Source: Adhaeribacter aquaticus DSM 16391
Lineage (GTDB): Bacteria; Bacteroidota; Bacteroidia; Cytophagales; Hymenobacteraceae
NCBI RefSeq assembly: GCF_000473365.1
Contig: NZ_KI421517.1
Coordinates: forward strand, 3,118,634 to 3,182,633
Length of the DNA: 64,000 nucleotides
Direction: 5' to 3'
Shown: piece by piece, positions 21,300-60,836 of the stretch
Numbering within the stretch: the first letter of the stretch is position 1
Layout: each line of letters begins with the position of its first letter
Translations under genes and position numbers: made by a program
Notes under the pieces: model-generated
What the model saw: the letters and a program-made list of their open reading frames with translations, nothing else
What the model was told of the DNA's origin: nothing
Databases searched by the model: none

Positions 21300-21716
21300 A
21301 TGATACTATACCAAAATTCCCTTATGGTTTTAAATTACGAACCCAGTTCTGATATTTTGACTGTTGAATGGCCTAATGCTGAGTTATTTTTGCTGCCGGA
21401 CCTAAAACAAACATTTCTGACCTTAATTGAAACAGTGCGGAATTATGATATAAAACAACTATTAATAAAGACCACTGCTGAATCTGTTATTCCTGTTTTG
21501 GATAACACTAAAGATAATTCAATTTATATCAGGCAGGTTTTGAAAGGCTTACGCGGCACCCGATTACAAAAAATAGCCAGGATATTAGCATTTGAAATAG
21601 AACAGGATAAAGAGGAACAAAAATTATCGGCTGAAATTAACGCTGATGCTACTATAACCATACAGTATAGAACATTTTTGGAAAACGAAATGGCCATGGC
21701 GTGGCTTTTAGAATAG
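21300..21716 (+). CDS. STAS/SpoIIAA-like small protein, subfamily A (copy A1)
   Basis: 138 residues. It belongs to a family with five copies in this window. Shared features are the start MILYQNSLMVLNYEPSSDIL, the motif RNYDIKQLL (about 55-63), LQKIARI (about 93-99) and a C-terminal helix ending AMAWLLE. The alternating beta-alpha pattern and the closing A-x-x-WL helix resemble SpoIIAA/STAS-like proteins that switch partners by contact, but no phosphorylatable serine stands out. This copy is the most diverged: the Asp or Asn after RNYDIKxLL is Lys. No operon partner is evident; it lies alone after the efflux terminator. Confidence 0.6.
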   Translation: MILYQNSLMVLNYEPSSDILTVEWPNAELFLLPDLKQTFLTLIETVRNYDIKQLLIKTTAESVIPVLDNTKDNSIYIRQVLKGLRGTRLQKIARILAFEIEQDKEEQKLSAEINADATITIQYRTFLENEMAMAWLLE

Positions 21717-38201: not shown

Positions 38202-38597
38202 TTACTCTATTAACCATTCCAATGCGTCGTGTAGTTCTGTAAAAATTCTGAACTGAATAGGCATTACATTTTCTTTGAAGAGGTTGCTAATCATATTTTC
38301 CTTAGCATAACTAGCCGAGGTAATGCGTGCAATTTTCTGTACCCGGGTAGTTTGTAAACCCTGAATAAAATTAGTCACGATAGGTGAAAAGGTAGTTTCT
38401 TCCACTTCCACTTTTGTTTCCTTAGCGTTAAATAATAACCTTTTTACGTCATAATTTCTGGCATATTCTATTACTAAACCAAAAGACATTTCAATTTCGG
38501 GTAGCAGGATATTGTCAACCGGTGGTAAATCAACCGTAAGGATATCGGTTGTTGGATCAAAATCCAATTTCATAAATCCATTTTCATATAAAACCAT
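38202..38597 (-). CDS. STAS/SpoIIAA-like small protein, subfamily A (copy A2)
   Basis: 131 residues from the ATG at 38597, chosen because all paralogs begin with M-hydrophobic-x-x-N-G/S (here MVLYENGFMKLDFDPTTDIL); an ATG 30 bp upstream is an alternative. It has ARNYDVKRLLFNA (about 51-63), VQKIARI and the end ALEWLIE. Closest in the window to A4. It lies between the helical-hairpin gene and an unknown 127-residue gene, without operon spacing that would name a partner. Confidence 0.65.
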   Translation of the reverse strand: MVLYENGFMKLDFDPTTDILTVDLPPVDNILLPEIEMSFGLVIEYARNYDVKRLLFNAKETKVEVEETTFSPIVTNFIQGLQTTRVQKIARITSASYAKENMISNLFKENVMPIQFRIFTELHDALEWLIE

Positions 38598-38754
38598 AGA
38601 ATAAGTGTTTTCTTTAAATAGGGACAAAAATAGTTAGGTTATACTTTAACCTTATAGAATTTTGTTGCTCAAATCCTTGAACTCTTTTAAAATAAATAGA
38701 CCTTGCAGAGGCAAAAAAGATTGTGAGCAGAAGGCACAAATAATTAAAGTAGTT

Positions 38755-39848: not shown

Positions 39849-40262
39849 TTAATTTTGGTTCTTTAGCCATTCGATAGCTTCAGCTTTATTAGAAAAGTTT
39901 AGTAATTCAAAAGGGAGTAGTCCGGTATTCTTTATATGCTTTATATTATTTTGAGCCGTGTTTTCAACAGCACTCCTGGGCGATTGAATCCTGGCAAGCT
40001 TCCGTAACCTCGTTTGTATTAAACCAGCGGCTAAATAAGAAGCTATTTCCCTGCTTTCCTGTTCACTAACAGAAATAATAGTATTGGAAGAATCTAATAA
40101 AAGTTTCTTTACATCGTAATTCCTTACATTTTCTACCAAAGCATCAATACTGTTCTTGATTTCGGTTAAGAGGTAGCCGTGTAGGTCCGGATAAGCTACT
40201 TCTAGTATATCTGTAGCCGCACTATAATTTAATTTAATTAATGAGTTGTCAAATAATATCAC
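39849..40262 (-). CDS. STAS/SpoIIAA-like small protein, subfamily A (copy A3)
   Basis: 137 residues. It shares with the other copies MILFDNSLIKLNYSAATDIL, VRNYDVKKLLLDSS (about 55-68), LRKLARI (about 94-100) and the final AIEWLKNQ. Cytoplasmic, no membrane part. It stands alone on the minus strand between two noncoding gaps. The Asp in LLLDSS lies where STAS proteins often have the end of the second strand, which supports the fold assignment but not a mechanism. Confidence 0.65.
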   Translation of the reverse strand: MILFDNSLIKLNYSAATDILEVAYPDLHGYLLTEIKNSIDALVENVRNYDVKKLLLDSSNTIISVSEQESREIASYLAAGLIQTRLRKLARIQSPRSAVENTAQNNIKHIKNTGLLPFELLNFSNKAEAIEWLKNQN

Positions 40263-42788: not shown

Positions 42789-43184
42789 TCACTCCTTCAG
42801 CCAATCTATTGCAGAGGTAATATCCGTAAAGCTCTGGAGCTGGATGGGAAGCTTCGGTCCGGTATACACATTTTTCACAGCTGATTCCCTTACGGTGCTT
42901 GAGGAGACAATCCGAGCTAATTTTTGTAGATGGGTAGATAGTAATGCATGCAGGAAATCTGACATCATAGCTGAATAAGTTTCTTCATTTACTTCGACCT
43001 GAGTTTTTCTTGCATCCACAAGCAGCTTTTTTACATCATAGTTTCTAACCTGCTCTACAATAATCCCTAAAAAACGGTTGATCTCTGGTAATATCAGCGT
43101 ATCTACGTCCGGCATCTGAGTCACAAGAATATCAGTTGCAGGATCATAGTCCATCTTAATAAAGGGGTTTTCGTAAACAATCAT
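42789..43184 (-). CDS. STAS/SpoIIAA-like small protein, subfamily A (copy A4)
   Basis: 131 residues. MIVYENPFIKMDYDPATDIL, VRNYDVKKLLVDARKTQVEV (about 50-69), LQKLARI (about 92-98), and ending AIDWLKE. Very close to A2 in the middle (KLL/RLL, xVEVxEET). It converges with the YitT gene. Its likely role as a partner-switch or scaffold protein is inference from the fold only. Confidence 0.65.
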   Translation of the reverse strand: MIVYENPFIKMDYDPATDILVTQMPDVDTLILPEINRFLGIIVEQVRNYDVKKLLVDARKTQVEVNEETYSAMMSDFLHALLSTHLQKLARIVSSSTVRESAVKNVYTGPKLPIQLQSFTDITSAIDWLKE

Positions 43185-43961: not shown

Positions 43962-44003
43962 TGATTTTTGTCATTATTTATATTTCTGAAAAAAGTATTT
44001 TTG
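43962..44003 (+). promoter_or_regulatory. CRP-type box and promoter of the FixL-like kinase operon
   Basis: TGAT-TTTT-GTCA (43962-43973) followed by the -7 element TATTTTTG (43996-44003). The box centre is 35.5 bp before the last G, one bp closer than at hemA, ccoI and ccoN. It suggests that the relay's own output controls the kinase gene. Confidence 0.6.
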
Positions 44004-44036: not shown

Positions 44037-45584
44037 TTGTTGGAAGAATCATCAAAGGAGCCGAACTCAAGCTTAGAAGATAGAACCCGTTTGCAGGCCA
44101 TTATAGATACGGCTATTGATGGTATTATTACCATTGACCGGAGCGGAATAATAGAAACTGTAAATCCGGCTGCGGCCCGTATTTTTGGGTATAAATCTGA
44201 GGAAGTTATTGGGCAAAATATAAGTATTTTAATGCCAGAGCCTGATCATAGCTTGCATGATCAATATATTGAAAACTACCACCAAACCGGGATTGGACAA
44301 ATAATAGGGAAGGGGCGTGAAGTTCTAGGAAAGAAAAAGGATGGTACCGTTTTCCCATTTTTATTAAGCATCAGCGAAGTGAATTTGCCCAATAAAAAAT
44401 TATTTACGGGCATTATCCACGATATTACCAATTTAAAGAAAGCCGAAGCAGCCTTACGGGAAAGTGAAAACAAGATAAATTCCATAATCCAGGCTGCCGT
44501 AGATGGTATTATTACAATTGATACCCGGGGAGTTATAGAAATGGTAAATCCGTCTGCTGCCAAATTGTTCGGGTATCATGCTAATGACTTAATAGGTAAG
44601 AGTATAAACATGTTGATGCCAGAACCTGATCATAGCCGACATGATACCTACATGGATAATTACCAAACTACCGGTAAGAAACGGATTATTGGAATAGGTC
44701 GAGAGGTAACTGGTTTACGAAAAGACGGCACTATTTTTCCATTTTATCTAAGCATAAGTGAAGTAGAATTAGCGGATAGAAAAGTTTATACCGGTTTTAT
44801 TCATGACATTACCCAACAGAAGTTAAATGAGGAGAAGCTAAGACGGTATGCAGCCGAACTGGAAAGAAGTAATTTAGAATTACAGGATTTTGCCTATGTG
44901 TCATCTCATGATCTGCAAGAGCCGTTACGAAAGATTCAGGCATTTGGTGATCGGTTGTTAGCCAAAGAATACGCCAACCTGAGCGACCAGGGGAAAGATT
45001 ATGTAGAAAGGATGCTGAATGCTGCTTCCCGAATGCAAAACCTTATAAATGATTTGTTAGATTTTTCCAGAGTTACCACTAAATCTAAACCCTTTGTTAA
45101 AGTAAATTTAGAAAAAGTTATTTCAGAGGTTTTATCAGATTTAGAAATAATAATTGAAAAAAGTGGGGCTAAAATTGAGCGGGCTCCTTTGCCTGAAATT
45201 GAGGCTGAGCCCACGCAAATGCGCCAATTATTCCAAAATCTAATTAGTAATGCTATAAAATTTCGGAAAGAAACAGAGCCTCCGGTAATTAAAATTTATA
45301 CCAAACATGTGCAGCGTCAGGCACATTTAACCGCTACTCCAGGCGATGAATCCATTGAAATATATGTGGAGGATAACGGGATTGGGTTTGAAGAAAAATA
45401 TTTAGACCGGATTTTTAATATATTTCAGCGTTTAGAAGGCCAGAAATATGAAGGATCAGGCATTGGGTTAGCCATTTGCCGAAAAATTGCCATCCGACAC
45501 GGTGGCGATATTACTGCTAAAAGTAAACCTGGCGTAGGGACCACCTTTATATTAACCTTAGCCACCAAACAACCAAAAGAATAA
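44037..45584 (+). CDS. FixL-like oxygen-sensor histidine kinase with two heme-PAS domains
   Basis: 515 residues, starting with TTG (44037 or 44040), soluble. Two PAS domains (about 15-135 and 143-262) are close copies. Each carries the FixL pattern MPEPDHS, HDxYxxNY, TG, IIGxGREVxG, KDGTxFPF. The His (His74, His202) corresponds to the heme-binding His200 of Bradyrhizobium FixL and the Arg (Arg94, Arg222) to Arg220; both pairs are 20 residues apart, as in FixL. The kinase core has SSHDLQEPLRK (His291), N-box LFQNLISNAIKF, DNGIGFE and GSGIGLAIC. It should sense O2 through heme. Three receiver genes and hemA follow in the same direction. Confidence 0.88.
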   Translation: MLEESSKEPNSSLEDRTRLQAIIDTAIDGIITIDRSGIIETVNPAAARIFGYKSEEVIGQNISILMPEPDHSLHDQYIENYHQTGIGQIIGKGREVLGKKKDGTVFPFLLSISEVNLPNKKLFTGIIHDITNLKKAEAALRESENKINSIIQAAVDGIITIDTRGVIEMVNPSAAKLFGYHANDLIGKSINMLMPEPDHSRHDTYMDNYQTTGKKRIIGIGREVTGLRKDGTIFPFYLSISEVELADRKVYTGFIHDITQQKLNEEKLRRYAAELERSNLELQDFAYVSSHDLQEPLRKIQAFGDRLLAKEYANLSDQGKDYVERMLNAASRMQNLINDLLDFSRVTTKSKPFVKVNLEKVISEVLSDLEIIIEKSGAKIERAPLPEIEAEPTQMRQLFQNLISNAIKFRKETEPPVIKIYTKHVQRQAHLTATPGDESIEIYVEDNGIGFEEKYLDRIFNIFQRLEGQKYEGSGIGLAICRKIAIRHGGDITAKSKPGVGTTFILTLATKQPKE

Positions 45585-45590
45585 CAGATT

Positions 45591-46046
45591 ATGACTCCCT
45601 TAAAATCATCCATAATTATTCTTGTTGCCGACGATGATGCAGAAGACCGAATGTTATTACTAGAGGCAATGGAGGAAAACAGGTTAAAGAATAGCATTGA
45701 GTTTGTTGAAAATGGAGAAGAATTACTGGATTATCTATATAATAGAGATAAGTTTTCAGATCCGGAGAAGTATCCGATGCCAGGATTAATTCTTTTAGAT
45801 TTAAATATGCCTAAAAAAGATGGACGAGAGGCACTAAAAGAAATAAAATCTGACCCCCAGTTGCGGCTTATTCCTATTGTAATTTTAACTACTTCTAAAG
45901 CCGAGGAAGACATAGTAAAAACCTATAATTTGGGGGTAAGTTCTTTTATAACCAAGCCTGTTACGTTTACCGCTTTGGTTGATATGATGAAAACCTTAAC
46001 TAGTTATTGGTTTGAATTGGTAGAGCTACCTAATATCAAAAAATAA
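45591..46046 (+). CDS. Rcp1-type single-domain response regulator
   Basis: 151 residues, receiver only. DDD near residues 14-16 (LVADDDAED), the phospho-acceptor in LILLDLNMPKKDG (about residue 66) and Lys in FITKPVTF. The inserted loop LDYLYNRDKFSDPEKYP is the mark of Rcp1-like receivers that serve phytochrome-type kinases. It starts 7 bp after the FixL-like kinase and is thus its likely first phospho-acceptor. With no output domain it probably passes phosphate on or acts by protein contact. Confidence 0.9.
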   Translation: MTPLKSSIIILVADDDAEDRMLLLEAMEENRLKNSIEFVENGEELLDYLYNRDKFSDPEKYPMPGLILLDLNMPKKDGREALKEIKSDPQLRLIPIVILTTSKAEEDIVKTYNLGVSSFITKPVTFTALVDMMKTLTSYWFELVELPNIKK

Positions 46047-46092
46047 GGTTTAAACGAGTAGTATATTCTCTCCTAATTAGGTTTTGATACAA

Positions 46093-47319
46093 ATGTCCGA
46101 CATGATTAAAATATTGCTGGTGGATGATGATGAGGATGATTACATTATTACCCGTGAAATTATTGAGGAGATACCTGCCCGCAATTATTCTTTAGATTGG
46201 GCCTCTTCTTTTAATGAGGCATTAAGGATAATAGCTGAAAAAAAACACGATGTATATTTAATTGATTACCGGTTAGGTGCCCACGATGGTCTGGAATTAA
46301 TACAGGAAGCTATTGCCAGTGGATCAACTTCCCCTTTAATTTTATTAACCGGCCAGAGTGATCTGGAAATAGATGAGAAAGCTATGCGGATGGGAGCCTC
46401 AGATTACCTGGTAAAAGGTGCCATCAGTCCGTATGATTTAGAACGTTCTATCCGGTATAGCATTGAACACGCTAAAAATATTGCTGAAATTCAGAAACTG
46501 AATAGTGAATTAGAGCAAAGGGTAATGGACCGTACCCAGGAGCTAGGCGAAGCAATAAAGAAATTAGAGGGGTCTAATCGCAGCTTATTTGCCGCTCAAC
46601 AAGAAATTAAAAAGGCTTTACAAAAAGAAAAAGAATTAAATGAATTGAAGTCCCGGTTCGTAACCATTGCCTCCCACGAGTTCAGGACGCCCTTAAGTAC
46701 CATACTTTCTTCGGCATCTCTTATAAGTAGATACAAAACGCTGGAAGAAGATGATAAAAGGCAAAAGCATGTAAACCGGATTAAATCAGCTGTCAATAAC
46801 TTAACCGGTATTTTAAACGATTTCCTGTCGCTTAGCCGCATTGAAGAGGGAAAGATATACAACGTGCCTACTACTTTTGATTTAGAGAATTTTGCGGCTG
46901 AAGTGGTAGATGAAATGCAAAGTTACATTAAAGTTGGGCAACAAATCTATTACCAACATCTGGGTTTAAATAGTCCGGTAACGTTAGATAAGCAACTCTT
47001 AAAAAACATTCTCCTCAATCTGCTTTCAAACGCCAGTAAGTATTCCGGGGAAGGTAAAAACATTTATCTTTTTACGGAGATTACGCCTAATCAAATTAAA
47101 GTAAAAGTTAAAGATGAGGGAATAGGAATTCCGGAAACGGATCAAGCACATTTGTTTACCTTGTTTTTCAGGGCCCAAAATGCCTCGAACTGTGAGGGGA
47201 CCGGCTTAGGCTTACACATTGTTAAAAGGTATGTCGATATCATGAATGGTAGTTTAAGCTTTCAAAGTAAGCTAGATCAGGGCACTACCTTTACCATTGA
47301 ACTTCCAAAAAATCTTTAA
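46093..47319 (+). CDS. Receiver-histidine kinase hybrid (REC-HisKA-HATPase)
   Basis: 408 residues from ATG 46093. An N-terminal receiver (about 5-120; LLVDDDEDDYII, IDYRLGAHDG with the phospho-acceptor near 58, YLVKGAIS), a long coiled coil (about 130-190), HisKA with FVTIASHEFRTPLSTI, N-box LKNILLNLLSNASKYS, DEGIGIP and GTGLGLHIV. No other sensor part, so its input is phosphate or contact at the receiver. It lies between two receiver genes, with 1 bp to the REC-CRP gene, so it probably relays the signal onward. Confidence 0.92.
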   Translation: MSDMIKILLVDDDEDDYIITREIIEEIPARNYSLDWASSFNEALRIIAEKKHDVYLIDYRLGAHDGLELIQEAIASGSTSPLILLTGQSDLEIDEKAMRMGASDYLVKGAISPYDLERSIRYSIEHAKNIAEIQKLNSELEQRVMDRTQELGEAIKKLEGSNRSLFAAQQEIKKALQKEKELNELKSRFVTIASHEFRTPLSTILSSASLISRYKTLEEDDKRQKHVNRIKSAVNNLTGILNDFLSLSRIEEGKIYNVPTTFDLENFAAEVVDEMQSYIKVGQQIYYQHLGLNSPVTLDKQLLKNILLNLLSNASKYSGEGKNIYLFTEITPNQIKVKVKDEGIGIPETDQAHLFTLFFRAQNASNCEGTGLGLHIVKRYVDIMNGSLSFQSKLDQGTTFTIELPKNL

Positions 47320-47320
47320 A

Positions 47321-48382
47321 ATGAAAAAGATATTATTAATTGAGGACAACCCCGAAATAAGAGAAAATATAGCTGAGATTTTAACTTTAGCTAATTACCA
47401 GATTTTGGAGGCAGAGAATGGGAGAGTTGGGGTGGAGCTGGCAAAAAAAGAAAACCCGGACTTAATTATTTGTGATATTATGATGCCGCAGTTGGATGGC
47501 TATGGCGTATTGCATATGCTTAGCAAAAACCAGGTTACCGCCAGTATTCCCTTTATATTCTTAACGGCTAAATCCGAAAAAGAAGATTTTCGCAAGGGCA
47601 TGAATTTAGGAGCCGATGATTATTTAATTAAACCTTTTGATGATCTGGAGTTATTGGATGCAGTAGAAATTAGATTAAAGAAAAATGAAATAATTAAAGC
47701 TGAATTCAAAAAAAGTCCAGAAGGCTTACAAGAGTTTATTCAGGAAGCAAAAGGTCTGGCGGCATTAAATAAATTAATTTCAGATGAGCAAAAGATATTC
47801 CATTTTAGAAAGAAACAACAACTGTTTTCAGAAGGACAGTATCCGCACGCGTTGTTTTTTTTAAGTAAAGGTAAAATGAAAGCCTTCAAAACAAATGAGG
47901 AGGGACGGGAATACATTACGCATTTGTACAAAGCTGGAGATTTTATAGGGTACCTGGATTTACTGGAAGATAAAGCTTACCGCGAATCAGCGGAAGCGCT
48001 GGAAGACTCCGAGGTGTGCATTATCCAAAAAGAAGATTTTTTCTCTTTGTTGTTTAATAACCGCGATGTAGCTAACAAGTTTATTAAAATCCTTTCGGAT
48101 AACTTAGCGGATCGGGAAGAAAGATTATTGAAATTAGCCTATAATTCTGTTCGGAAACGGGTGGCGGAAGCTTTGTTATTGGTAGAAAAACAGTACCAGC
48201 AGGATCAAGCTAAAAATTTTAAAGTTGCTATCTCACGCGAAGATTTAGCCAATATAGTAGGAGCCTCCAAAGAAACAGTAATTCGTACCTTATCAGATTT
48301 TAAAGATGAGCAATTAATAGATATTAATGGAGGTAAAATTACTATTTTAAATAAAGAAAAGCTGGTACGGATGCGGAATTGA
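47321..48382 (+). CDS. REC-CRP fusion: response regulator with CRP/FNR DNA-binding output
   Basis: 353 residues from ATG 47321. Residues 1-120 are a receiver (LLIEDNPEI, phospho-acceptor Asp52 in LIICDIMMPQLDG, KPFDD). About 140-260 are a cNMP-binding-like beta roll (LFSEGQYPHALFFLSKGKMK, then GDFIGYLDLLEDKAYRESAE). About 275-353 are a CRP-type winged helix, with recognition helix GASKETVIRTLSDF. The E-T-V-x-R pattern is as in CRP and FNR, which read TGA half-sites. There are no FNR-type N-terminal cysteines, so no iron-sulfur cluster: oxygen information would come by phosphorylation. It is the best candidate to bind TGAY-N4-RTCA boxes before hemA, ccoI, ccoN and the kinase gene. Confidence 0.9.
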   Translation: MKKILLIEDNPEIRENIAEILTLANYQILEAENGRVGVELAKKENPDLIICDIMMPQLDGYGVLHMLSKNQVTASIPFIFLTAKSEKEDFRKGMNLGADDYLIKPFDDLELLDAVEIRLKKNEIIKAEFKKSPEGLQEFIQEAKGLAALNKLISDEQKIFHFRKKQQLFSEGQYPHALFFLSKGKMKAFKTNEEGREYITHLYKAGDFIGYLDLLEDKAYRESAEALEDSEVCIIQKEDFFSLLFNNRDVANKFIKILSDNLADREERLLKLAYNSVRKRVAEALLLVEKQYQQDQAKNFKVAISREDLANIVGASKETVIRTLSDFKDEQLIDINGGKITILNKEKLVRMRN

Positions 48383-48445: not shown

Positions 48446-48488
48446 TGATAATTATCATCTTTCTGGAAATTTATTCTGTTAAAATTTG
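48446..48488 (+). promoter_or_regulatory. CRP-type box and promoter of hemA
   Basis: TGATAATTATCA (48446-48457), a perfect 12-bp palindrome, then CTTT (48459-48462), 18 bp, then AAAATTTG (48481-48488), one mismatch from TAnnTTTG. The box centre is 36.5 bp before the last G. The context AACTGAxAATxxTCATCTTT is shared with ccoN. Confidence 0.78.
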
Positions 48489-48506: not shown

Positions 48507-49787
48507 ATGCAAAATCAGTTTAAAGCCATTACCTTATCCTATAAACATGCTCCTATTGCCATTCGGGAAGCAGTAGCCTTAAACGAAGCTGCCTGTAAAA
48601 ACCTGCTGCAAAACATTCAAGCGTTTACTCAGGCTACTGATGTACTGGTTTTATCTACCTGCAACCGCACAGAAATTTATTATGTTGCTGGGCAAGATTA
48701 TTCTGCTGAAATAATAAAACTGATTGCCATAGAAAAAGGCTTTATTGCTACTAAACATATTAAACCATTCTTCCGGAACATTACCGATACAGAGGAGGCT
48801 ATAAAGCATTTATTTCACGTGTCTTTGGGTTTAGAATCGCAGGTAGTAGGCGATATGCAGATAATGAACCAGGTGAAAAATGTCTACCAATGGTCGGCAG
48901 ATGCCGGTTTGGCTGGCCCGTTTCTGCACCGCCTGATGCACGCCATTTTTTATACCAACAAGCGGGTCGTAAACGAAACCGCTTTTAAAGATGGAGCGGC
49001 TTCGGTTTCTTATGCTACCGTAGAGTTGGTGGAAGAACTAACCAAAGAAATAGAAGCCCCACGGGTATTAATGATTGGGGTGGGCGATATTGGTGCTAAT
49101 GTTTGCCGGAACTTCCAAAAATCCAGCCTCAACAATATAATTATAATTAACCGTACCTTCCGGAAAGCAGCTGATTTGGCCCAGGAAAGTAATGCCGTTG
49201 CTGTGCCCTGGGAACAGGTTTGGGAAGAAATAGAAAAGGCCGATGTTGTTATTTCGTCGGTGCCGGGAGATGCTTTCTTTATCAGCCGGGAGAAAATAGA
49301 AACAATGGGAAGGTTAGAGCATAATAAATTCTTTATTGATCTTTCCATGCCCCGCAGTATTGATAATTCTATTGAAACCATTCAGGGTGCTTGTGTCTAT
49401 AATATTGATAATATCCGGAATCGGGCGACCGAAGCCCTGGAAAAAAGAATAGCTGCTATTCCGGAGGTGAAAAATATAGCGGATCAATCAATCAGCGATT
49501 TCCTGGATTGGGCTCAGAAATTGATAATATCACCAGCTATTCAGCAATTCAAAAATAAGCTGGAGCAAATCCGGCAACAGGAAATTGCCCGCCACCTAAA
49601 AAACATAAACGATCAGGAAAAAGAATTGGTAGAAGTTTTGACTAAAAACATACTGCAAAAGATAATAAAGCTGCCCGTACTGGAGCTTAAAGCAGCCTGC
49701 CAACGAGGCGAGTCTGAAACGTTATTGGAAGGACTAAGTACCCTTTTTAAACTGGAACCCGAAGCGGTAATGGAAAAATTGAAATAG
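48507..49787 (+). CDS. hemA: Glutamyl-tRNA reductase
   Basis: 426 residues from ATG 48507; a TTG 21 bp upstream falls within the promoter -7 element and is rejected. It makes glutamate-1-semialdehyde from Glu-tRNA with NADPH, the first step of heme synthesis. Catalytic Cys52 is in LVLSTCNRTEIYYVAG. Further family marks are HLFHVSLGLESQVVGDMQI, the NADPH fold MIGVGDIGANVCRNF, and IDLSMPRSID. Placing hemA behind the oxygen relay, under a CRP-type box, fits a rise in heme supply when heme-containing terminal oxidase and globins are made. Confidence 0.96.
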   Translation: MQNQFKAITLSYKHAPIAIREAVALNEAACKNLLQNIQAFTQATDVLVLSTCNRTEIYYVAGQDYSAEIIKLIAIEKGFIATKHIKPFFRNITDTEEAIKHLFHVSLGLESQVVGDMQIMNQVKNVYQWSADAGLAGPFLHRLMHAIFYTNKRVVNETAFKDGAASVSYATVELVEELTKEIEAPRVLMIGVGDIGANVCRNFQKSSLNNIIIINRTFRKAADLAQESNAVAVPWEQVWEEIEKADVVISSVPGDAFFISREKIETMGRLEHNKFFIDLSMPRSIDNSIETIQGACVYNIDNIRNRATEALEKRIAAIPEVKNIADQSISDFLDWAQKLIISPAIQQFKNKLEQIRQQEIARHLKNINDQEKELVEVLTKNILQKIIKLPVLELKAACQRGESETLLEGLSTLFKLEPEAVMEKLK

Positions 49788-52553: not shown

Positions 52554-52571
52554 GCATGATAAAAATCATGC
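52554..52571. promoter_or_regulatory. CRP-type box upstream of D-lactate dehydrogenase
   Basis: GCATGAT-AAAA-ATCATGC, perfect 7-bp arms, fits TGAY-N4-RTCA. On the minus strand a TAnnTTTG element (TAGTTTTG, 52511-52504) ends 58.5 bp from its centre. It lies between the globin and the dehydrogenase genes, with the latter the only gene it could drive. Confidence 0.6.
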
Positions 52572-52582
52572 CTTTATAATAA

Positions 52583-52999
52583 TTAAACGGTATGGTTATT
52601 CAAAGTACCTATCGGTGACTCCTGCCCCTGGATAACCCGGATCTTATTTGAAAAAATACGAGCAATGCTGGCAGCCCGGAACTTGGCTTCCTCGGCTATT
52701 GGGCCTCTAAAGTTTTCGGTAATAGTTTCGTAAAAGAGTAAAAGCCACTGAGCAAAGTGCGTTTGGTTTACTGGCAAAAAAGCATGTTTCGGGAAAGGGT
52801 GCCCGTTGTAGGTGCTGGTGCCTAGTAAAATGGAACTCCAGAACCGGTACATAACAGGAAGGTGATTATCCCAGTTTACGTGCGCGTGCTCATTAAAAAC
52901 AGGAGAAAGCATCGCATCCTGGTTTACTTTCTTGTAAAAATCATCCACCAGCTTTTTTATATCTTCTTCCGACGTAATGTCTTTTAAATTAGTTTCCAT
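52583..52999 (-). CDS. Group III truncated hemoglobin
   Basis: 138 residues with the 2-on-2 globin pattern of group III. Proximal heme His81 is in LPVNQTHFAQWLLLF, with FWSSILLGTSTYNGHPFPKH before it and FRGPIAEEAKFRAASIARIF after. Such globins bind O2, NO or peroxide with high affinity and are often found with nitrogen-oxide or microaerobic respiration. It is the distal member of a minus-strand series, followed by D-lactate dehydrogenase. No perfect CRP-type box lies upstream, only a half-site near 53075. Confidence 0.9.
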   Translation of the reverse strand: METNLKDITSEEDIKKLVDDFYKKVNQDAMLSPVFNEHAHVNWDNHLPVMYRFWSSILLGTSTYNGHPFPKHAFLPVNQTHFAQWLLLFYETITENFRGPIAEEAKFRAASIARIFSNKIRVIQGQESPIGTLNNHTV

Positions 53000-53088: not shown

Positions 53089-53403
53089 TTACTTTATCAG
53101 TACCACCTTACAATCAATAGTAGCCATTACTGAATGGGGTTCATTGGCGGGTATTCTAATGTTTTCACCGGGTTTTAAATCTTGTTCTTTGCCGTAAATG
53201 GTGAAACAACAACTTCCTTCCAAAACCAGCAATAAGGCTGGAGAAGAGGTGGTATGAGTTTTTAAACCTTGGCCTTGGGCAAAAACAAACAGAATAATTT
53301 TTTGACCATCTTTCTCCGATATTACTTGGCTGGTGAATTTCTCCTGGTTAAATGTAAGCTGATTAGCTATTTTCCTAAACTCGGCTTCTTGTAATATATT
53401 CAT
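53089..53403 (-). CDS. Small cupin-domain protein
   Basis: 104 residues, a single cupin barrel. The first motif is partly seen in GQGLKTHTTSSPALLLVLEG (only one His) and the second in LKPGENIRIPANEPHSVMA. Metal ligands are thus incomplete (missing one His and Glu of the first motif), so binding of a small molecule or a reduced metal site is more likely than catalysis. It sits 3 bp after the membrane protein gene and 89 bp before the globin gene, and they probably form an operon. Confidence 0.83.
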   Translation of the reverse strand: MNILQEAEFRKIANQLTFNQEKFTSQVISEKDGQKIILFVFAQGQGLKTHTTSSPALLLVLEGSCCFTIYGKEQDLKPGENIRIPANEPHSVMATIDCKVVLIK

Positions 53404-53983: not shown

Positions 53984-54349
53984 TTACTTAAAAGCGGTTT
54001 TATAAGTAAAAACCTGTACCAGTTTATCTGCTAATTGCTGGGCGGCAGCGGCAGTCGGACCTGTAAAATGTTCTTCTATGGCTTCGTGAAACAAATGCAC
54101 CCATTCTCTTACCTGATCCTGTTGAGCCGGCAAAAAAGCATGTAAAATTTGAGGGTGCCCTTTATATCTACCAGATTTTAATAAAATAGAATCCCAGAAA
54201 TTCTTCATTTGAAACAAGTGAAGGGTCCAGTCCCGGGGCGAAAGCTTTTCATAAAGTGCTAACAGGTAAGGTTGGGATTGAATTTTATTGTAAAAGGTTT
54301 CTACCAAAATCTGGATGTCATTGGTATTGGTAATATCGGATTTGTTCAT
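53984..54349 (-). CDS. Truncated hemoglobin-like protein lacking the usual proximal His
   Basis: 121 residues from ATG 54349, chosen to match the start of the other globin; an ATG at 54403 would add 18 residues. Alignment to the globin at 52583 is gap-free through FWDSILLKSGRYKGHPQILH, AFLPAQQDQVREWVHLF and FTGPTAAAAQQLA. At the place of the proximal His81 of that protein it has Gln79 (QQDQVREW). His residues at WVHLFHEAI are near but not in the usual spot. It may bind heme differently, be heme-free, or act as a sensor. It is divergent from ccoI and shares its promoter region. Confidence 0.8.
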   Translation of the reverse strand: MNKSDITNTNDIQILVETFYNKIQSQPYLLALYEKLSPRDWTLHLFQMKNFWDSILLKSGRYKGHPQILHAFLPAQQDQVREWVHLFHEAIEEHFTGPTAAAAQQLADKLVQVFTYKTAFK

Positions 54350-54464
54350 AAGGTGTATTAGAATTGGTTTTGATTGTCTGGTAATCGCCCCAGAGAGCTT
54401 CATAAACAGTACAAATATTGCGCCTCTTATTTTTACCCGTGATGAGAAAGATTAGCCTTAACTA

Positions 54465-54507
54465 TGACATGCATCATCTTTTAGGGGTACCGTCCTAAGT
54501 AATTTTG
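54465..54507 (+). promoter_or_regulatory. CRP-type box and promoter of ccoI, shared with the globin gene
   Basis: TGAC-ATGC-ATCA (54465-54476), CTTT (54478-54481), 18 bp, then TAATTTTG (54500-54507), a perfect TAnnTTTG. Box centre to last G is 36.5 bp. In the other direction, AATATTTG (54419-54412, minus) could serve the globin gene at 58.5 bp. Confidence 0.78.
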
Positions 54508-54531: not shown

Positions 54532-56967
54532 ATGATGGAAACCGCACAAACCAAAGTTAAAGAGCATTGCTACCATTGCGGAGACGAATGTATCACCGAA
54601 CCTATTTATTCCGAAGAAAAGACCTTTTGCTGTACCGGGTGTAAATCGGTATATGAATTGTTGTATGCCAATAACCTTTGTACTTATTATAATTTAGATA
54701 AAAGCGAAAAGCCGGGTTTAACAATCAAGGAAGAGTACGTAACCATGAGTCAGTTTTCTTATTTAGATGAGGAAACTGTACGGAATAAATTACTTAGTTT
54801 CCAAAGCGATTGTTTGGATAAAGTGTTGTTCCAGGTGCCGGGCATGCACTGTAGTTCCTGTATCTGGTTATTGGAAAATTTATATAAGCTGGATAAGGGA
54901 ATTATTGAGGCAAGGGTAAACTTTCCACGAAAGGAGATTTCCATTTCCTTCAACCCGCAATCAACCCAATTAAGCGCGGTAGTTACGCTGCTGCATAAAA
55001 TAGGATATGCGCCCACACTAAACTTAGAAATTTTATCGGGTGCACCACAACAGAAAAGCTATGGCATTTATTTAAAATTAGGTCTGGCTGGTTTCTGTTT
55101 TGGTAATATTATGCTGTTTAGCTTCCCAGAATATTTTGCCTTTGCCGATGAGATTAAACAGGAATTTGGTTCCTTCTTTGGGTACATGAGTATTGTTTTG
55201 GCTTTGCCAGTTTTTCTGTATAGCGCCAATGGTTTTTTCAGCTCGGCCTGGGCATCTTTAAAGCAAAAGCACATAAACCTCGATACACCTATTAGCCTGG
55301 GTTTGCTTTCGTTGTTCTGCGTGAGCTTGTACGATATTTTTACCGCTAGTGGTCCAGGTTATCTAGATTCCTTTACTGGCTTGGTGTTCTTTATGCTGAT
55401 TGGCAAGTATGTGCAGCAAACTACTTACGATGCCTTAGCCTTCGATCGCGATTACAAAGCTTACTTCCCCATTTCCGTTACGGTTTTGGAAAAAGGATTG
55501 GAAAAAGTTATATCAGTTAAAGACTTGGTGCCCGGCAAACGCATTCGCATTCGGAACCAGGAGTTAGTACCCGCCGATGCCATTTTGCTGCGCGGCAATG
55601 CTTTTATTGATTACAGTTTTGTGTCCGGCGAATCGGTACCTGTGCGTAAGGTAGCCGGCGAAATTATATATGCTGGTGGCCGGCAGGTAGGAGAGAGCAT
55701 TGAGCTGGAAACGGTAAAAGATGTGTCGCAGAGTTACCTGACTCAGCTCTGGAACAACGAGGTTTTTACGAAAGAGAAAAGCTATTTTGGCTTTGGCACC
55801 TACGCCGATAAAGTGGGCAGTTATTTTATTTCTGTAACCTTACTTATTGCGGCAGGAGCGTTGGTTTACTGGGTGCCCCGCGATACCGATATGGCGGTAA
55901 AAGCCTTTACGTCGGTGTTAGTAATTGCCTGCCCGTGTGCCTTATCATTGAGTACACCGTTTACCTTATCTAATGCCTTACGGATATTTGGCCGCCATAA
56001 GTTTTACCTGAAGAATGGTGATGTAGCCGAAACGTTGGCTAAAGCCGATACCATAGTTTTTGATAAAACCGGTACCTTAACCCAAAGCTCCGAAGCCGAA
56101 ATTGAGTATCATGGTCAGGAACTTAGCGCTGAGGATAAGGTTTTAGTACGGTCAGTGTTGCAGCACTCCACGCACCCGCTGAGCCAAAGCCTATATCACT
56201 TTTTAAAAGGAGCAGTACTGCCGGTAGGTAACTATAAGGAAGTAGCGGGCAAAGGAATTCAAGGACTGGTAAAGGGCAAAGAGGTAAAAGTTGGATCTGC
56301 TTTTTTTGTAGGAGCTACCAGTGCCGATGTTAGGGGCCTGGAAACTCGGGTGTATGTCAGCATAGATTCTGCTCAACCGAGCTATTTTGCCTTTCATAAC
56401 AACTACCGAGCAGGCTTACCAGACTTAATTGCGGAGCTGCAAAAACAAGGCAAAAAGCTGGCCGTACTTTCCGGCGATAATGCTTCAGAAAAAGAAAATC
56501 TAAAGCACTTATTAGGGCCAGGGGCAGAGCTGCGTTTCAATCAATCTCCGGTTGATAAACTAGCTTACATTGCTTTACTAAAAAAACAAGGCAATAAGGT
56601 AATTATGGTAGGTGATGGCCTGAATGATGCCGGGGCTTTAAGAATGAGTGATGCCGGTATATCGGTAACCGATTCGGTAAATGGTTTTTCCCCAGGTTGC
56701 GATGCTATTCTGGATGCCAGTAATTTTGCTCAACTAGGACAGTTTATTCGATTTGCCCGCTACAGCATGCTGGTAATTCTCACCAGTTTCGGGGTTTCTT
56801 TTGTCTATAATATTTTTGGCTTAACCATGGCCGTAATGGGTAAATTTTCGCCGGTTGTTTCGGCCATACTTATGCCTGTTAGTTCGCTTAGTGTAATAGT
56901 ATGCTCGGTACTGGGGGTACGGTTGGTTGCCCGGAAAATGAATTTATTACATAAAACTAAAAATTAA
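54532..56967 (+). CDS. ccoI: Copper-exporting P-type ATPase for cbb3 oxidase assembly (CcoI/FixI)
   Basis: 811 residues from ATG 54532 (SD GAGGAG just before); a TTG at 54505 lies inside the promoter and is rejected. It carries a Cys-rich N-terminal metal-binding part (YHCGDEC, FCCTGCKSVYE), an HMA domain with GMHCSSC, eight membrane helices, the actuator SGESVPV, ACPCALSLSTP in helix 6, DKTGTLT with the phosphorylated Asp, and VMVGDGLND. It transports copper out of the cytoplasm for the CuB site of the oxidase. ccoS follows by 8 bp. Identification as FixI type rests on the Cys-rich N-terminus plus ccoS and the oxidase nearby. Confidence 0.93.
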   Translation: MMETAQTKVKEHCYHCGDECITEPIYSEEKTFCCTGCKSVYELLYANNLCTYYNLDKSEKPGLTIKEEYVTMSQFSYLDEETVRNKLLSFQSDCLDKVLFQVPGMHCSSCIWLLENLYKLDKGIIEARVNFPRKEISISFNPQSTQLSAVVTLLHKIGYAPTLNLEILSGAPQQKSYGIYLKLGLAGFCFGNIMLFSFPEYFAFADEIKQEFGSFFGYMSIVLALPVFLYSANGFFSSAWASLKQKHINLDTPISLGLLSLFCVSLYDIFTASGPGYLDSFTGLVFFMLIGKYVQQTTYDALAFDRDYKAYFPISVTVLEKGLEKVISVKDLVPGKRIRIRNQELVPADAILLRGNAFIDYSFVSGESVPVRKVAGEIIYAGGRQVGESIELETVKDVSQSYLTQLWNNEVFTKEKSYFGFGTYADKVGSYFISVTLLIAAGALVYWVPRDTDMAVKAFTSVLVIACPCALSLSTPFTLSNALRIFGRHKFYLKNGDVAETLAKADTIVFDKTGTLTQSSEAEIEYHGQELSAEDKVLVRSVLQHSTHPLSQSLYHFLKGAVLPVGNYKEVAGKGIQGLVKGKEVKVGSAFFVGATSADVRGLETRVYVSIDSAQPSYFAFHNNYRAGLPDLIAELQKQGKKLAVLSGDNASEKENLKHLLGPGAELRFNQSPVDKLAYIALLKKQGNKVIMVGDGLNDAGALRMSDAGISVTDSVNGFSPGCDAILDASNFAQLGQFIRFARYSMLVILTSFGVSFVYNIFGLTMAVMGKFSPVVSAILMPVSSLSVIVCSVLGVRLVARKMNLLHKTKN

Positions 56968-57137: not shown

Positions 57138-57211
57138 ATATTCCAATTCTTATATAAACCTATTGCCCCTATCAGGATTTTGTATTAATTTTAATGCCAT
57201 TTCTGTTCAGC

Positions 57212-57610
57212 ATGATTTTATTCCAAAACGGACTTATTCGATTAGATTATCAGCCATCCAGTGATATTTTGTACATGGACTGGCCAAGCATGCATTCCTA
57301 TGCTTTATCCGAAATTCGGTTCTCTTTGGAGAAATTAGTGGAAGTAGTACGGCATTATGATATTAAATTGCTTTTAGTGGATGCCAGTAAGTCGGTAGTG
57401 GATATTGGCGATCCGGAATATAAGGGTGTAATGACGGAGTTTATTTATAACATTATGCAGACCCGCTTGCAAAAGCTAGCTCGCATTGAAACAGGTAATG
57501 TTACCCGTGAAAAAAGAATTGGGGAATTAAAAGAAGCAACTAAACCAACATTTAGTTATCAGGGCTTCACCAATAAAGAAGCTGCCAAAGAATGGCTTTT
57601 AGAGTCCTGA
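57212..57610 (+). CDS. STAS/SpoIIAA-like small protein, subfamily A (copy A5)
   Basis: 132 residues from ATG 57212, chosen by the common start MILFQNGLIRLDYQPSSDIL; an ATG 18 bp upstream is possible. VRHYDIKLLLVDASKSVVDI (about 49-68), LQKLARI (about 92-98) and the end AAKEWLLES. It is 74 bp after ccoS and could be read from the ccoI promoter; a terminator follows it. Its neighbours downstream are three subfamily B proteins. Confidence 0.65.
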   Translation: MILFQNGLIRLDYQPSSDILYMDWPSMHSYALSEIRFSLEKLVEVVRHYDIKLLLVDASKSVVDIGDPEYKGVMTEFIYNIMQTRLQKLARIETGNVTREKRIGELKEATKPTFSYQGFTNKEAAKEWLLES

Positions 57611-57811: not shown

Positions 57812-58207
57812 ATGAAACATAGAAAATTACACACCAACCATTACCTTGAAATAGAATACAATCTGATTGATGATATTATCACAGGTAATTGGATAGGTCC
57901 GCAAACAGAATCTTCTATTAAGGCAGGATATGAAGATTTAAGTTTTTTCATGCAGCAACAGGTTTGCCATAAACTGCTGGATAACCATTTGGAAGTAAAG
58001 GGTATTTGGGTGGATGGAGCGGGCTGGATGGCATATGACTGGCACCCCAGAGCTGAAAAAAATGGCCTTATTTACCATGCCTGTGTTTATTCCCGGGATA
58101 CTTTCAGCCGTTTATCCACTCACCAAGCAATACATATGGTAGAAAAAGGCATTATTGAGGGTTTTGATACCCGGGAAGCCGCAGAAAACTGGTTAAAAGC
58201 AGTTTAA
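57812..58207 (+). CDS. STAS/SpoIIAA-like small protein, subfamily B (copy B1)
   Basis: 131 residues. A different branch from subfamily A: the strand YLEIEYNLIDDIITGNWIG, helix SIKAGYEDLSFFM, the strand CHKLLDNH, a tryptophan-rich stretch (GIWVDGAGWMAYDWHPRAE) and the closing REAAENWLKAV. The layout (strand-helix-strand, C-terminal A-x-x-WL) is like SpoIIAA/STAS-type proteins. The motif KLLDN/KLLNS/VLNDT with a following G-x-W is shared with B2 and B3. Function unknown. Confidence 0.65.
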   Translation: MKHRKLHTNHYLEIEYNLIDDIITGNWIGPQTESSIKAGYEDLSFFMQQQVCHKLLDNHLEVKGIWVDGAGWMAYDWHPRAEKNGLIYHACVYSRDTFSRLSTHQAIHMVEKGIIEGFDTREAAENWLKAV

Positions 58208-58806
58208 TATTTAATTATAGGGTATTGTTGTGTCTTGACTAGCCCGACTAATAGAAGCTTCCCAAAATAACCTGATAAACGTAGGCAAATAACCTCAAAT
58301 TAAATAATTGCGCAGTCTATTCTCCACTAACACGCTTACCGGTGTATAATTAAATGGTTAAGAAATAAGCTTCCCTTTTTTGGAATTTAAGACTTTCAAG
58401 GACTGGTCCTAAATTATAGAGATTAATTTATCTAAACACATTTATCTCTGATTAGCTTTTATTTTTAAACCATTATATAAATCGATAATTACTTTCTAGT
58501 GTTTTGATATCAATTAAACCATCAAGCTATCCAAATTCTTATATTTTCTTCTTTGGAATTTATATTGACAAGGTTTTCAGAATCAACCTTCTTTTTTTGA
58601 GATAAAGCAAAATCAGAAATCCTCAAATCAATAGTATTATAACCTTTAGACTTTGAATACCCTAGCCTAAGTTATCAAATATAAAAGTAATTTTGCCTCT
58701 TCTTTTATCTTATTTATTTAACTATAGTAATACCTTTATATTTAATTTTTCGTAATGGTTATTTATTAAACCAAACCTACCGGGCTTTTTGCTTTTAATT
58801 TTAAAT
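58208..58806. other. AT-rich noncoding gap
   Basis: Nearly 600 bp without a gene. It is very AT-rich with many stops, and I see no clear hairpin or repeat. Confidence 0.5.
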
Positions 58807-59220
58807 ATGATTCAAGAGCTTAAAAATACCTTTGACCGGGTATATCTTACCATTGAGGTTGATGATAAAAACAAATGGGTTCATGTAAACTGGATGGGTT
58901 ATTTAACCGAAGAAAATATTAAAACTGGCGGAACTGCTTACATAGATGCTTTAAAAAAGGCGGATTACCAGTGTGTTTTAAACGATACCCGTATGATTGT
59001 AGGGGGGTGGAATCATTCTTTGGACTGGGTAGTTAATGAGTGGGCACCTTATGCCGCTTCCTCAGGATTAGAATATTTTGCTATGATCAGTAATCCTGAA
59101 TCTTTTGGAGGTTCTTCTGCCTCTAAATTTTATGAAGATTTAAAGGCTTTTCAGGCACAGGTTTTCAATGAAAAGCGCACAGCTGAAGAATGGCTTCGTC
59201 AATTTTCTTTACGTAAATAA
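58807..59220 (+). CDS. STAS/SpoIIAA-like small protein, subfamily B (copy B2)
   Basis: 137 residues from ATG 58807 (MIQELKNTFDRVYLTIEV); an ATG 18 bp before is possible. It has VHVNWMGYLTEENIKTGG, the strand YQCVLNDTRMIVGGW, the tryptophan-containing helix LDWVVNEWAPYAASSGLEYF and the end RTAEEWLRQF. Clearly paralogous to B3 (WxxxEWxPxxxxxGLxYxA). It is 40 bp from B3 and they probably form an operon. Confidence 0.68.
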   Translation: MIQELKNTFDRVYLTIEVDDKNKWVHVNWMGYLTEENIKTGGTAYIDALKKADYQCVLNDTRMIVGGWNHSLDWVVNEWAPYAASSGLEYFAMISNPESFGGSSASKFYEDLKAFQAQVFNEKRTAEEWLRQFSLRK

Positions 59221-59260: not shown

Positions 59261-59677
59261 ATGGAACAGGTAATAACATTAAGGAAAGTATTTGGTGAAG
59301 TCTTCATTACCATCCAAAGAATGCCTGATAATGCCTTTATTTTAGCGGAATGGTTTGGAGTACAATCCGTTGAAACTGTGATGCAGGGCGGTTATAGGAT
59401 GTTGGAGTTAATAAAAGAAAAGCCTTGTTCTAAATTACTCAATAGCAATAAAAATGTAATCGGGTCTTGGGATATGGCTTTGGAGTGGGCCCAAAATGAA
59501 TGGACGCCTCAGGTTAGGGCGGCAGGATTAAGATATTTAGCCCAGGTAGTTCCCTCGAGTATTTATGCCACCATGACCATTGAAACGCTTATTCAGCGCA
59601 TAAATAATGATCTGGAAATAAGAACTTTTGAAGATGAGGCAGCGGCAGAAGCCTGGCTTCGGTCAGTACCGGATTAA
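59261..59677 (+). CDS. STAS/SpoIIAA-like small protein, subfamily B (copy B3)
   Basis: 138 residues. Strand FILAEWFGVQSVETVMQGGY, KLLNSNKNVIGSW (about 67-79), LEWAQNEWTPQVRAAGLRYL (about 83-102) and the end AAAEAWLRSV. Companion of B2. The shared NEWxPxxxxxGLxY motif lies where SpoIIAA-like proteins have helix 3 and strand 4. Whether the copies bind one another or the nearby kinases is unknown. Confidence 0.68.
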   Translation: MEQVITLRKVFGEVFITIQRMPDNAFILAEWFGVQSVETVMQGGYRMLELIKEKPCSKLLNSNKNVIGSWDMALEWAQNEWTPQVRAAGLRYLAQVVPSSIYATMTIETLIQRINNDLEIRTFEDEAAAEAWLRSVPD

Positions 59678-60753: not shown

Positions 60754-60793
60754 TTCCCTCCAAAATCCTCCTGACAACAATCACCCCCAGAAC

Positions 60794-60836
60794 TGACAAT
60801 CGTCATCTTTTAAGCTAGCGGATCTGCGGAAATTTG
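60794..60836 (+). promoter_or_regulatory. CRP-type box and promoter of the cbb3 oxidase operon
   Basis: TGAC-AATC-GTCA (60794-60805), a perfect palindrome in its arms, CTTT (60807-60810), 18 bp, then GAAATTTG (60829-60836), one mismatch from TAnnTTTG. Centre to last G is 36.5 bp, as at hemA and ccoI. The ATG is 24 bp further. Confidence 0.8.

Follow-up and report, generated by a model that had tools for sequence, protein, structure and literature searches.

A probable four-protein oxygen relay with a REC-CRP output and a second hemA in Adhaeribacter aquaticus

The relay genes and the adjoining hemA

In a 64,000-nucleotide stretch of Adhaeribacter aquaticus DSM 16391 (assembly GCF_000473365.1, contig NZ_KI421517.1, positions 3,118,634 to 3,182,633, forward strand; hereafter the window, to which unlabelled coordinates refer), four genes at 44037-48382, here termed g1 to g4, encode a sensor kinase, a lone receiver (REC), a receiver-kinase and a regulator in which a receiver is fused to a CRP-type protein (REC-CRP). 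The host genome, G000, comprises 5.17 Mb in four contigs, of which the chromosome accounts for 4.83 Mb; its nearest relatives fall in Adhaeribacter, Rufibacter and Pontibacter. We describe these genes, together with an adjoining second hemA (hemA2), as a probable oxygen (O2) relay for the control of high-affinity respiration.

44037 to 45584, forward strand: g1, soluble sensor kinase of 515 aa with the plan PAS-PAS-HisKA(HDLQEPL)-HATPase, FixL-like PAS domains and a bacteriophytochrome-like kinase core
44088 to 44426, forward strand: PAS1 of g1, with FixL-type heme pocket H74, I89, R94, L110 and I112, matching BjFixL H200, I215, R220, L236 and I238
44472 to 44810, forward strand: PAS2 of g1, with FixL-type heme pocket H202, I217, R222, L238 and I240
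45591 to 46046, forward strand: g2, lone receiver of 151 aa of the Rcp1/RcpA/RcpB kind, without an output domain
46093 to 47319, forward strand: g3, receiver-HisKA-HATPase, its kinase core related to PAS-kinases that adjoin REC-CRP genes elsewhere
47321 to 48382, forward strand: g4, REC-CRP transcription regulator composed of receiver, cNMP fold and Crp helix-turn-helix (HTH), 353 aa from its ATG
48507 to 49787, forward strand: hemA2, a second glutamyl-tRNA reductase that shares 55% identity with the housekeeping hemA (G000:C1:1024940)

All four relay genes are intact and lie on a single strand, and because the gaps between them are only 6, 46 and 1 nt they are likely to form one operon. An earlier sequence-only reading of this stretch had described four same-direction genes with gaps of 1-50 bp, and this arrangement is confirmed, as are the domain plans given for the lone receiver, the receiver-kinase and the REC-CRP fusion. 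The g1-g2-g3-g4 cassette is present in 59 loci gathered by a g4 search (five of them scored short by a frame cut-off, with g3 present there by tblastn), and a REC-CRP ortholog occurs in 70 of 200 family genomes. In about 50-80 relatives there is little or no variation in the phospho-acceptor Asp, the Lys and the Thr of the three receivers or in the two kinases' H- and N-boxes. The cassette is thus no chance arrangement, being conserved in the Hymenobacteraceae and nearby Cytophagales.

The residues that line the heme pocket of BjFixL have well-known roles, and g1 retains all five in each of its PAS domains. In an alignment of g1 with 55 close orthologs, the PAS1 pocket is invariant in 56 of 56 sequences and the PAS2 pocket likewise, save that I240 is replaced by V in five; PAS2 also matches the heme PAS of Bradyrhizobium FixL with an E value of 4e-33. 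Retention of the five pocket residues in both domains makes it a strong inference that g1 carries heme in two FixL-type PAS domains. The previous description of a heme-PAS kinase therefore holds by sequence, with the correction that there are two heme-type domains, not one. g1 is FixL-like and not a rhizobial FixL, scoring 331 bits against the FixL equivalog model NF041777, whose cut-off is 850, and the best non-FixL solved relatives of its kinase core (H-box HDLQEPL) include bacteriophytochromes. The nearest relatives of g2 are receivers of the Rcp1, RcpA and RcpB kind; as a receiver-only protein lacking an HTH of the NarL/LuxR type, it is ruled out as a FixJ. With its phytochrome-like kinase core and Rcp-like partner, the g1-g2 pair resembles a Cph1/Rcp1-style couple equipped with FixL-type sensors.

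The output protein, g4, matches the CRP-family domains PF00027, PF13545 and PF00325 (a cNMP-type beta roll plus Crp HTH) and is the sole chromosomal protein that scores against PF13545. Unlike FixK and FNR it does not stand alone, being joined to an intact N-terminal receiver in which D52, E8/D9 and K104 are retained in 81 of 81 aligned sequences and position 82 is T or S. In the same 81 sequences E318 and R322, of the recognition helix KETVIR, never vary. The CRP part has no FNR-type N-terminal cysteine cluster, as had been claimed, and, as read from the alignment, its phosphate-binding stretch (GDFIGYLDLL...YRESAEA) mismatches the cAMP-contact residues of Escherichia coli CRP. Phosphorylation as the probable input of g4, also proposed earlier, fits the intact receiver and the absence of both the cAMP-contact residues and the FNR cysteines. 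Among the best 60 solved chains, none is reported to span both halves of g4, and no description of REC-CRP regulators was found in the open-licence literature.

The start codon of hemA2 (ATG at 48507) lies 124 nt past g4, and its product matches TIGR01035. That the relay directly precedes hemA holds for adjacency; the gene has its own promoter, predicted to be regulated as described below, and is not merely read on from the relay. Nor is it the sole, housekeeping copy, a possibility ruled out by the other hemA in G000. Orthologs of hemA2 occur in 68 of the 70 family genomes with a REC-CRP ortholog and in none of the other 130. We therefore take hemA2, on these sequence comparisons, to be the dedicated heme-synthesis gene of the relay.

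Operator, promoter geometry and predicted regulon

Sites of the form TGA-N6-TCA in the window precede g1, hemA2, ccoI and ccoNO, in the last case twice with a spacing of 22 bp. We define the strict operator as TGAYN4RTCA and the class II pattern as TGAYN4RTCA-N27-TTTG. The sites, listed without strand, and the two further predicted targets are as follows.

43962 to 43973: predicted REC-CRP operator TGATTTTTGTCA upstream of g1 (autoregulation), with TATTTTTG at 43996-44003 and TTTG 32.5 bp past the centre
48446 to 48457: predicted operator TGATAATTATCA, a perfect palindrome, upstream of hemA2, with TTTG at 48485-48488, 33.5 bp past the centre
54465 to 54476: predicted operator TGACATGCATCA upstream of ccoI, with TAATTTTG at 54500-54507 and TTTG 33.5 bp past the centre
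54532 to 56967, forward strand: ccoI-type P-ATPase, predicted target
60772 to 60783: predicted upper operator TGACAACAATCA of a tandem pair upstream of ccoNO, 22 bp above the lower site
60794 to 60805: predicted lower operator TGACAATCGTCA upstream of ccoNO, with TTTG at 60833-60836, 33.5 bp past the centre
60861 to 63041, forward strand: ccoNO fusion of the cbb3 oxidase, predicted target

The strict palindrome is found upstream of hemA2 in 48 of 48 loci (mean 0.96 and maximum 4 in dinucleotide shuffles) and upstream of ccoNO in 23 of 23 (shuffled mean 0.58); upstream of the housekeeping hemA it is found in none of eight relay genomes. A strict site also stands before g1 in 37 of the 72 loci, where shuffling yields 1.2 on average. 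Close-set sites are almost always 22 bp apart across loci, with 44 such pairs and none in the shuffled control. Equally constant is the distance to TTTG, which starts exactly 33.5 bp past the operator centre in 49 of 49 hemA2 promoters and 28 of 30 ccoNO promoters. Over all sites this offset has 85 occurrences, where the median offset has 3, and that of 55.5 bp (33.5 plus 22) has 41; the spacer between operator and TTTG is mostly weakly conserved. In Flavobacterium psychrophilum, the Bacteroidota -7 box TAnnTTTG occupies positions -12 to -5 (PMC9723704), and these positions combined with the 33.5-bp offset place the operator centre at about -41.5. On the transcription starts so predicted for the host, the operator occupies the position of a class II activator site, with no separate -33 box needed.

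On the 4.83-Mb chromosome the class II pattern has only four sites, none more than 17 kb from the relay; they precede hemA2, ccoI, ccoNO and ccoG. In relatives, class II sites precede ccoI, ccoNO, ccoG, hemN, nitric oxide (NO) reductase, a globin and g1, and further ones lie ahead of nadA, a universal stress protein gene and a gene for a CcmB-like protein. Seven relay genomes together contain 38 sites of an extended form, TCATNTT; three relay-less genomes contain none. Co-occurrence runs in the same direction: of 70 family genomes examined, 53 have ccoNO and each of these 53 also has some REC-CRP, and within the relay-bearing genera ccoNO is present in 38 of 39 relay genomes versus none of five relay-less ones, the exception being a genome that is 78% complete. 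Losses in three genera support linkage, with the caveat that many relay-less genomes come from few genera. The earlier proposal that the REC-CRP protein controls cco genes and hemA is strongly supported by the operator and co-occurrence evidence, as a prediction from sequence. In F. psychrophilum under oxygen limitation, the cbb3 oxidase and heme-synthesis genes go up (PMC9723704).

Two other motifs were considered. The FNR-type box TTGA-N6-TCAA occurs in the window at a frequency no greater than chance, and the narrower pattern TGAYAANNRTCA gave 30 genome-wide matches, fewer than its reversed control; the class II pattern was preferred instead. A further strict operator, TGATAAAAATCA at 52557-52568, lies 144 nt ahead of the start (52413) of a 2-hydroxyacid (lactate-type) dehydrogenase gene, which we do not claim as a target because the site lacks TTTG at the class II distance.

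Between hemA2 and ccoI lie two truncated-globin-like genes (52583-52999 and 53984-54403) and a cupin gene (53089-53403); a globin gene in one relative (L198) also bears an operator. Elsewhere in the window, many small, scattered proteins, about 131-143 aa long, fall into groups of similar members and indicate a local paralog expansion (21300-21716, 38202-38627, 39849-40262, 42789-43184, 57194-57610, 57812-58207, 58789-59220 and 59261-59677), of which only the last is weakly SpoIIAA-like.

Sites that continue as TCACTG form a separate class. They occur in relay and relay-less genomes alike and, where read, precede sulfur genes, and are for both reasons probably another regulator's. In several genomes, TGAYN4RTCACTG sites with class II geometry lie ahead of genes for a TauE/SafE exporter, a metallo-beta-lactamase/rhodanese protein (persulfide-dioxygenase-like) and rhodaneses; loci of this regulon are L146 (G000:C3:9900-11200), L212 (G000:C3:6000-10300), L209, L210 and L211. 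In G000 these sites adjoin a CRP-family gene on contig C3 whose helix reads SREVISR.

The proposed relay and its alternatives

Gene content, the conservation of catalytic and heme-pocket residues, the operator, promoter geometry and co-occurrence are the observations from which we consider it probable, with some confidence, that g1 to g4 form a four-protein O2 relay that switches on high-affinity respiration. In this scheme, g1 would bind heme in both FixL-type PAS domains and O2 would alter its autokinase activity. g1 would then phosphorylate g2, which probably serves to absorb or buffer phosphate, and also the front receiver of g3, whose state would set g3 activity; g3 would in turn phosphorylate the receiver of g4. 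Phosphorylated g4 is predicted to bind TGAY-N4-RTCA as a CRP-type dimer at about -41.5, to recruit RNA polymerase in class II fashion and to activate ccoNO (through two sites 22 bp apart), ccoI, ccoG, hemA2 and its own operon, such that the oxidase and its heme would be produced together at low O2. We infer the binding of heme and O2, every phosphotransfer, the identity of the operator-binding protein and the sign of the receiver step. For these Bacteroidota the scheme points to a likely master regulator of respiration at low oxygen, with operator TGAYN4RTCA at -41.5 and a regulon, none of which we found described in the open-access literature searched. It also couples a cbb3 oxidase to a private copy of the gene for the first step of heme synthesis.

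Several points weigh against this scheme. About half of the g1 promoters are without a strict site. Relatives are not independent samples, so that the shuffle and Fisher figures overstate significance; the contrast between fixed elements and a free spacer is unaffected by the kinship of the genomes. In genomes without a g4 ortholog, seven of seven ccoNO promoters carry the same sites, though these genomes do have a REC-CRP of 49-50% identity, and the host encodes seven other proteins with cNMP-type domains, several with an E..SR helix, that could share the operator. A further point is the sign of the g1-g3 step. In the Nmp system of Myxococcus, the first kinase is active with O2 and silences the second, NmpS being turned off by phosphorylation of its REC (PMC11841059); if g3 has an off-switch of this kind, the sign would come out wrong for a FixL-like g1 that is active when O2 is absent. 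Since a FixL-like kinase should be active in the absence of O2, the scheme calls for a g3 receiver that activates, or else for a g1 that departs from FixL behaviour.

A reversal of sign on the Nmp model, in which g1 would be active with O2 and silence g3, and the loss of O2 would free g3 to act on g4, is a tentative alternative that we hold to be distinctly less likely than the proposed relay. This is how NmpU and NmpS operate, in a system that shares its U-T-S gene order and its domain plan with the relay (PMC11841059), and the ancestral g3 kinase appears to have had a PAS of its own, such that a later REC could be a brake; g1, however, has FixL-type PAS pockets, the known FixL kinases are inhibited by O2 (PMC4999443), and the Nmp sensor is a protoglobin rather than a PAS domain. 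It is unlikely that the operon instead houses two pathways, a Cph1/Rcp1-like g1-g2 pair with a separate output and a g3-g4 cco regulator driven otherwise. Self-contained pairing is known in cyanobacteria, Rcp receivers are the closest relatives of g2, the g1 core is near bacteriophytochromes, and in other Bacteroidota the equivalent of g3-g4 suffices alone in a PAS-kinase form; yet g3 in this family has its REC as sole sensor domain, and has it precisely in those loci that also hold g1 and g2, so that its only visible input is phosphate from elsewhere, and the four genes remain together across genera.

The remaining alternatives concern the signal and the owner of the operator. Heme-PAS proteins can bind NO and carbon monoxide (CO), and NO reductase and globin genes bear class II sites in relatives, which would suit a g1 that senses NO, CO or redox and reaches the low-O2 genes indirectly; with the core common targets being the cbb3 oxidase, its assembly factors and heme synthesis, we regard this as rather improbable. 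More doubtful still is ownership of the operators by another CRP/FNR-family protein, with the relay a mere neighbour and target. CRP-family sites do resemble each other, and the TCACTG class marks a second CRP regulon; but g4 alone on the chromosome scores with PF13545, the four chromosomal promoters all lie beside the relay, TCATNTT is absent from the three relay-less genomes, and ccoNO (53 genomes) never occurs without a REC-CRP.

Origin of the relay and known counterparts

Outside the cassette group, in other Bacteroidota, REC-CRP genes are directly preceded by a single PAS-kinase gene (24 loci, with no REC on the kinase and no g2), and this pair often adjoins ccoI and ccoNO (L062, L065, L068, L139, L140 and L142). 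The pair shares with the relay its REC-CRP output, a homologous kinase core and a similar ccoNO operator, and differs in being a direct two-component system whose kinase keeps its PAS and which lacks g1, g2 and hemA2. A REC on the g3 kinase is found exactly where g1 and g2 occur, and in the Flammeovirgaceae two loci, L058 (8436-10001) and L061 (8359-10005), have a REC-PAS-kinase beside REC-CRP and are apparent living intermediates. In a kinase-core tree, poorly resolved within the g3 group, g3 joins the PAS-kinases found beside REC-CRP (95/97), and g1 falls in a separate clade (96/98). On the most economical reading of these sequences, the PAS-kinase/REC-CRP pair is of ancient origin, and its PAS gave way to a receiver with the arrival of g1-g2. 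We give about an even chance to the full history, in which a two-component pair became a four-protein oxygen relay by swapping its PAS for a receiver, by placement of a two-heme FixL-like kinase and an Rcp-type receiver ahead of it, and by the regulator's gain of hemA2. If true, it would trace, with living intermediates, an evolutionary route along which sensing was handed over to a second kinase. It would also be a clear example of how a relay can grow out of a two-component pair, with simple, intermediate and full forms all alive and open to side-by-side comparison. A species of the same genus (G246; L132/L143) is without relay, hemA2 and ccoNO and has another REC-CRP, of 47% identity, and a FixL-like single-PAS kinase.

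The sequence-only reading had cast the locus as a FixL-FixJ-FixK-like relay from which one step was removed. The probable role in cco and hemA control and the FixL-type PAS domains partly bear out the first part of this description, but there is no FixJ and the nearest layout is that of another system; the second part is contradicted by the wide distribution of the simple PAS-kinase/REC-CRP pair, to which steps were apparently added here, with none removed. The FixL-FixJ-FixK systems of rhizobia and Caulobacter share with the relay a FixL-type heme-PAS and a CRP-family regulator of cco and heme genes, and differ in having FixJ, with its NarL-type HTH, and a separate FixK gene, in place of which the relay has a second kinase and a lone receiver in between (PMC4999443). 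The hFixL-FxkR-FixK chain of Rhizobium leguminosarum/etli also leads from a FixL-related sensor through a longer chain to a CRP-family regulator, that of fixNOQP, but hFixL is a hybrid kinase and FixK is a separate gene product without a receiver (PMC7888657). Cph1-Rcp1 pairs are matched in the Rcp-like g2 and the bacteriophytochrome-like kinase core of g1, and differ in their sensor, a phytochrome module where g1 has heme-PAS domains.

By analogy of layout, the nearest described system is NmpRSTU of Myxococcus xanthus, with the AfGcHK system of Anaeromyxobacter, rather than FixLJK, the comparison being one of domain plan and gene order. These systems likewise combine a heme-based soluble kinase, a receiver-only protein, a REC-HisKA kinase and an output regulator; the Nmp gene order U-T-S corresponds to g1-g2-g3, autoregulation, predicted for the relay, is common to both, and NmpRSTU targets the cbb3 oxidase, a CcoI-like ATPase and hemN, as predicted here, hemN in relatives (PMC11841059). 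The differences are a protoglobin sensor in place of two heme-PAS domains, two receivers within the receiver-only protein, and an NtrC/sigma-54 output instead of CRP (PMC11841059). The relay can thus be regarded as a variant of the O2-sensing systems known from rhizobia and myxobacteria, one whose operator and regulon are unusually well supported.

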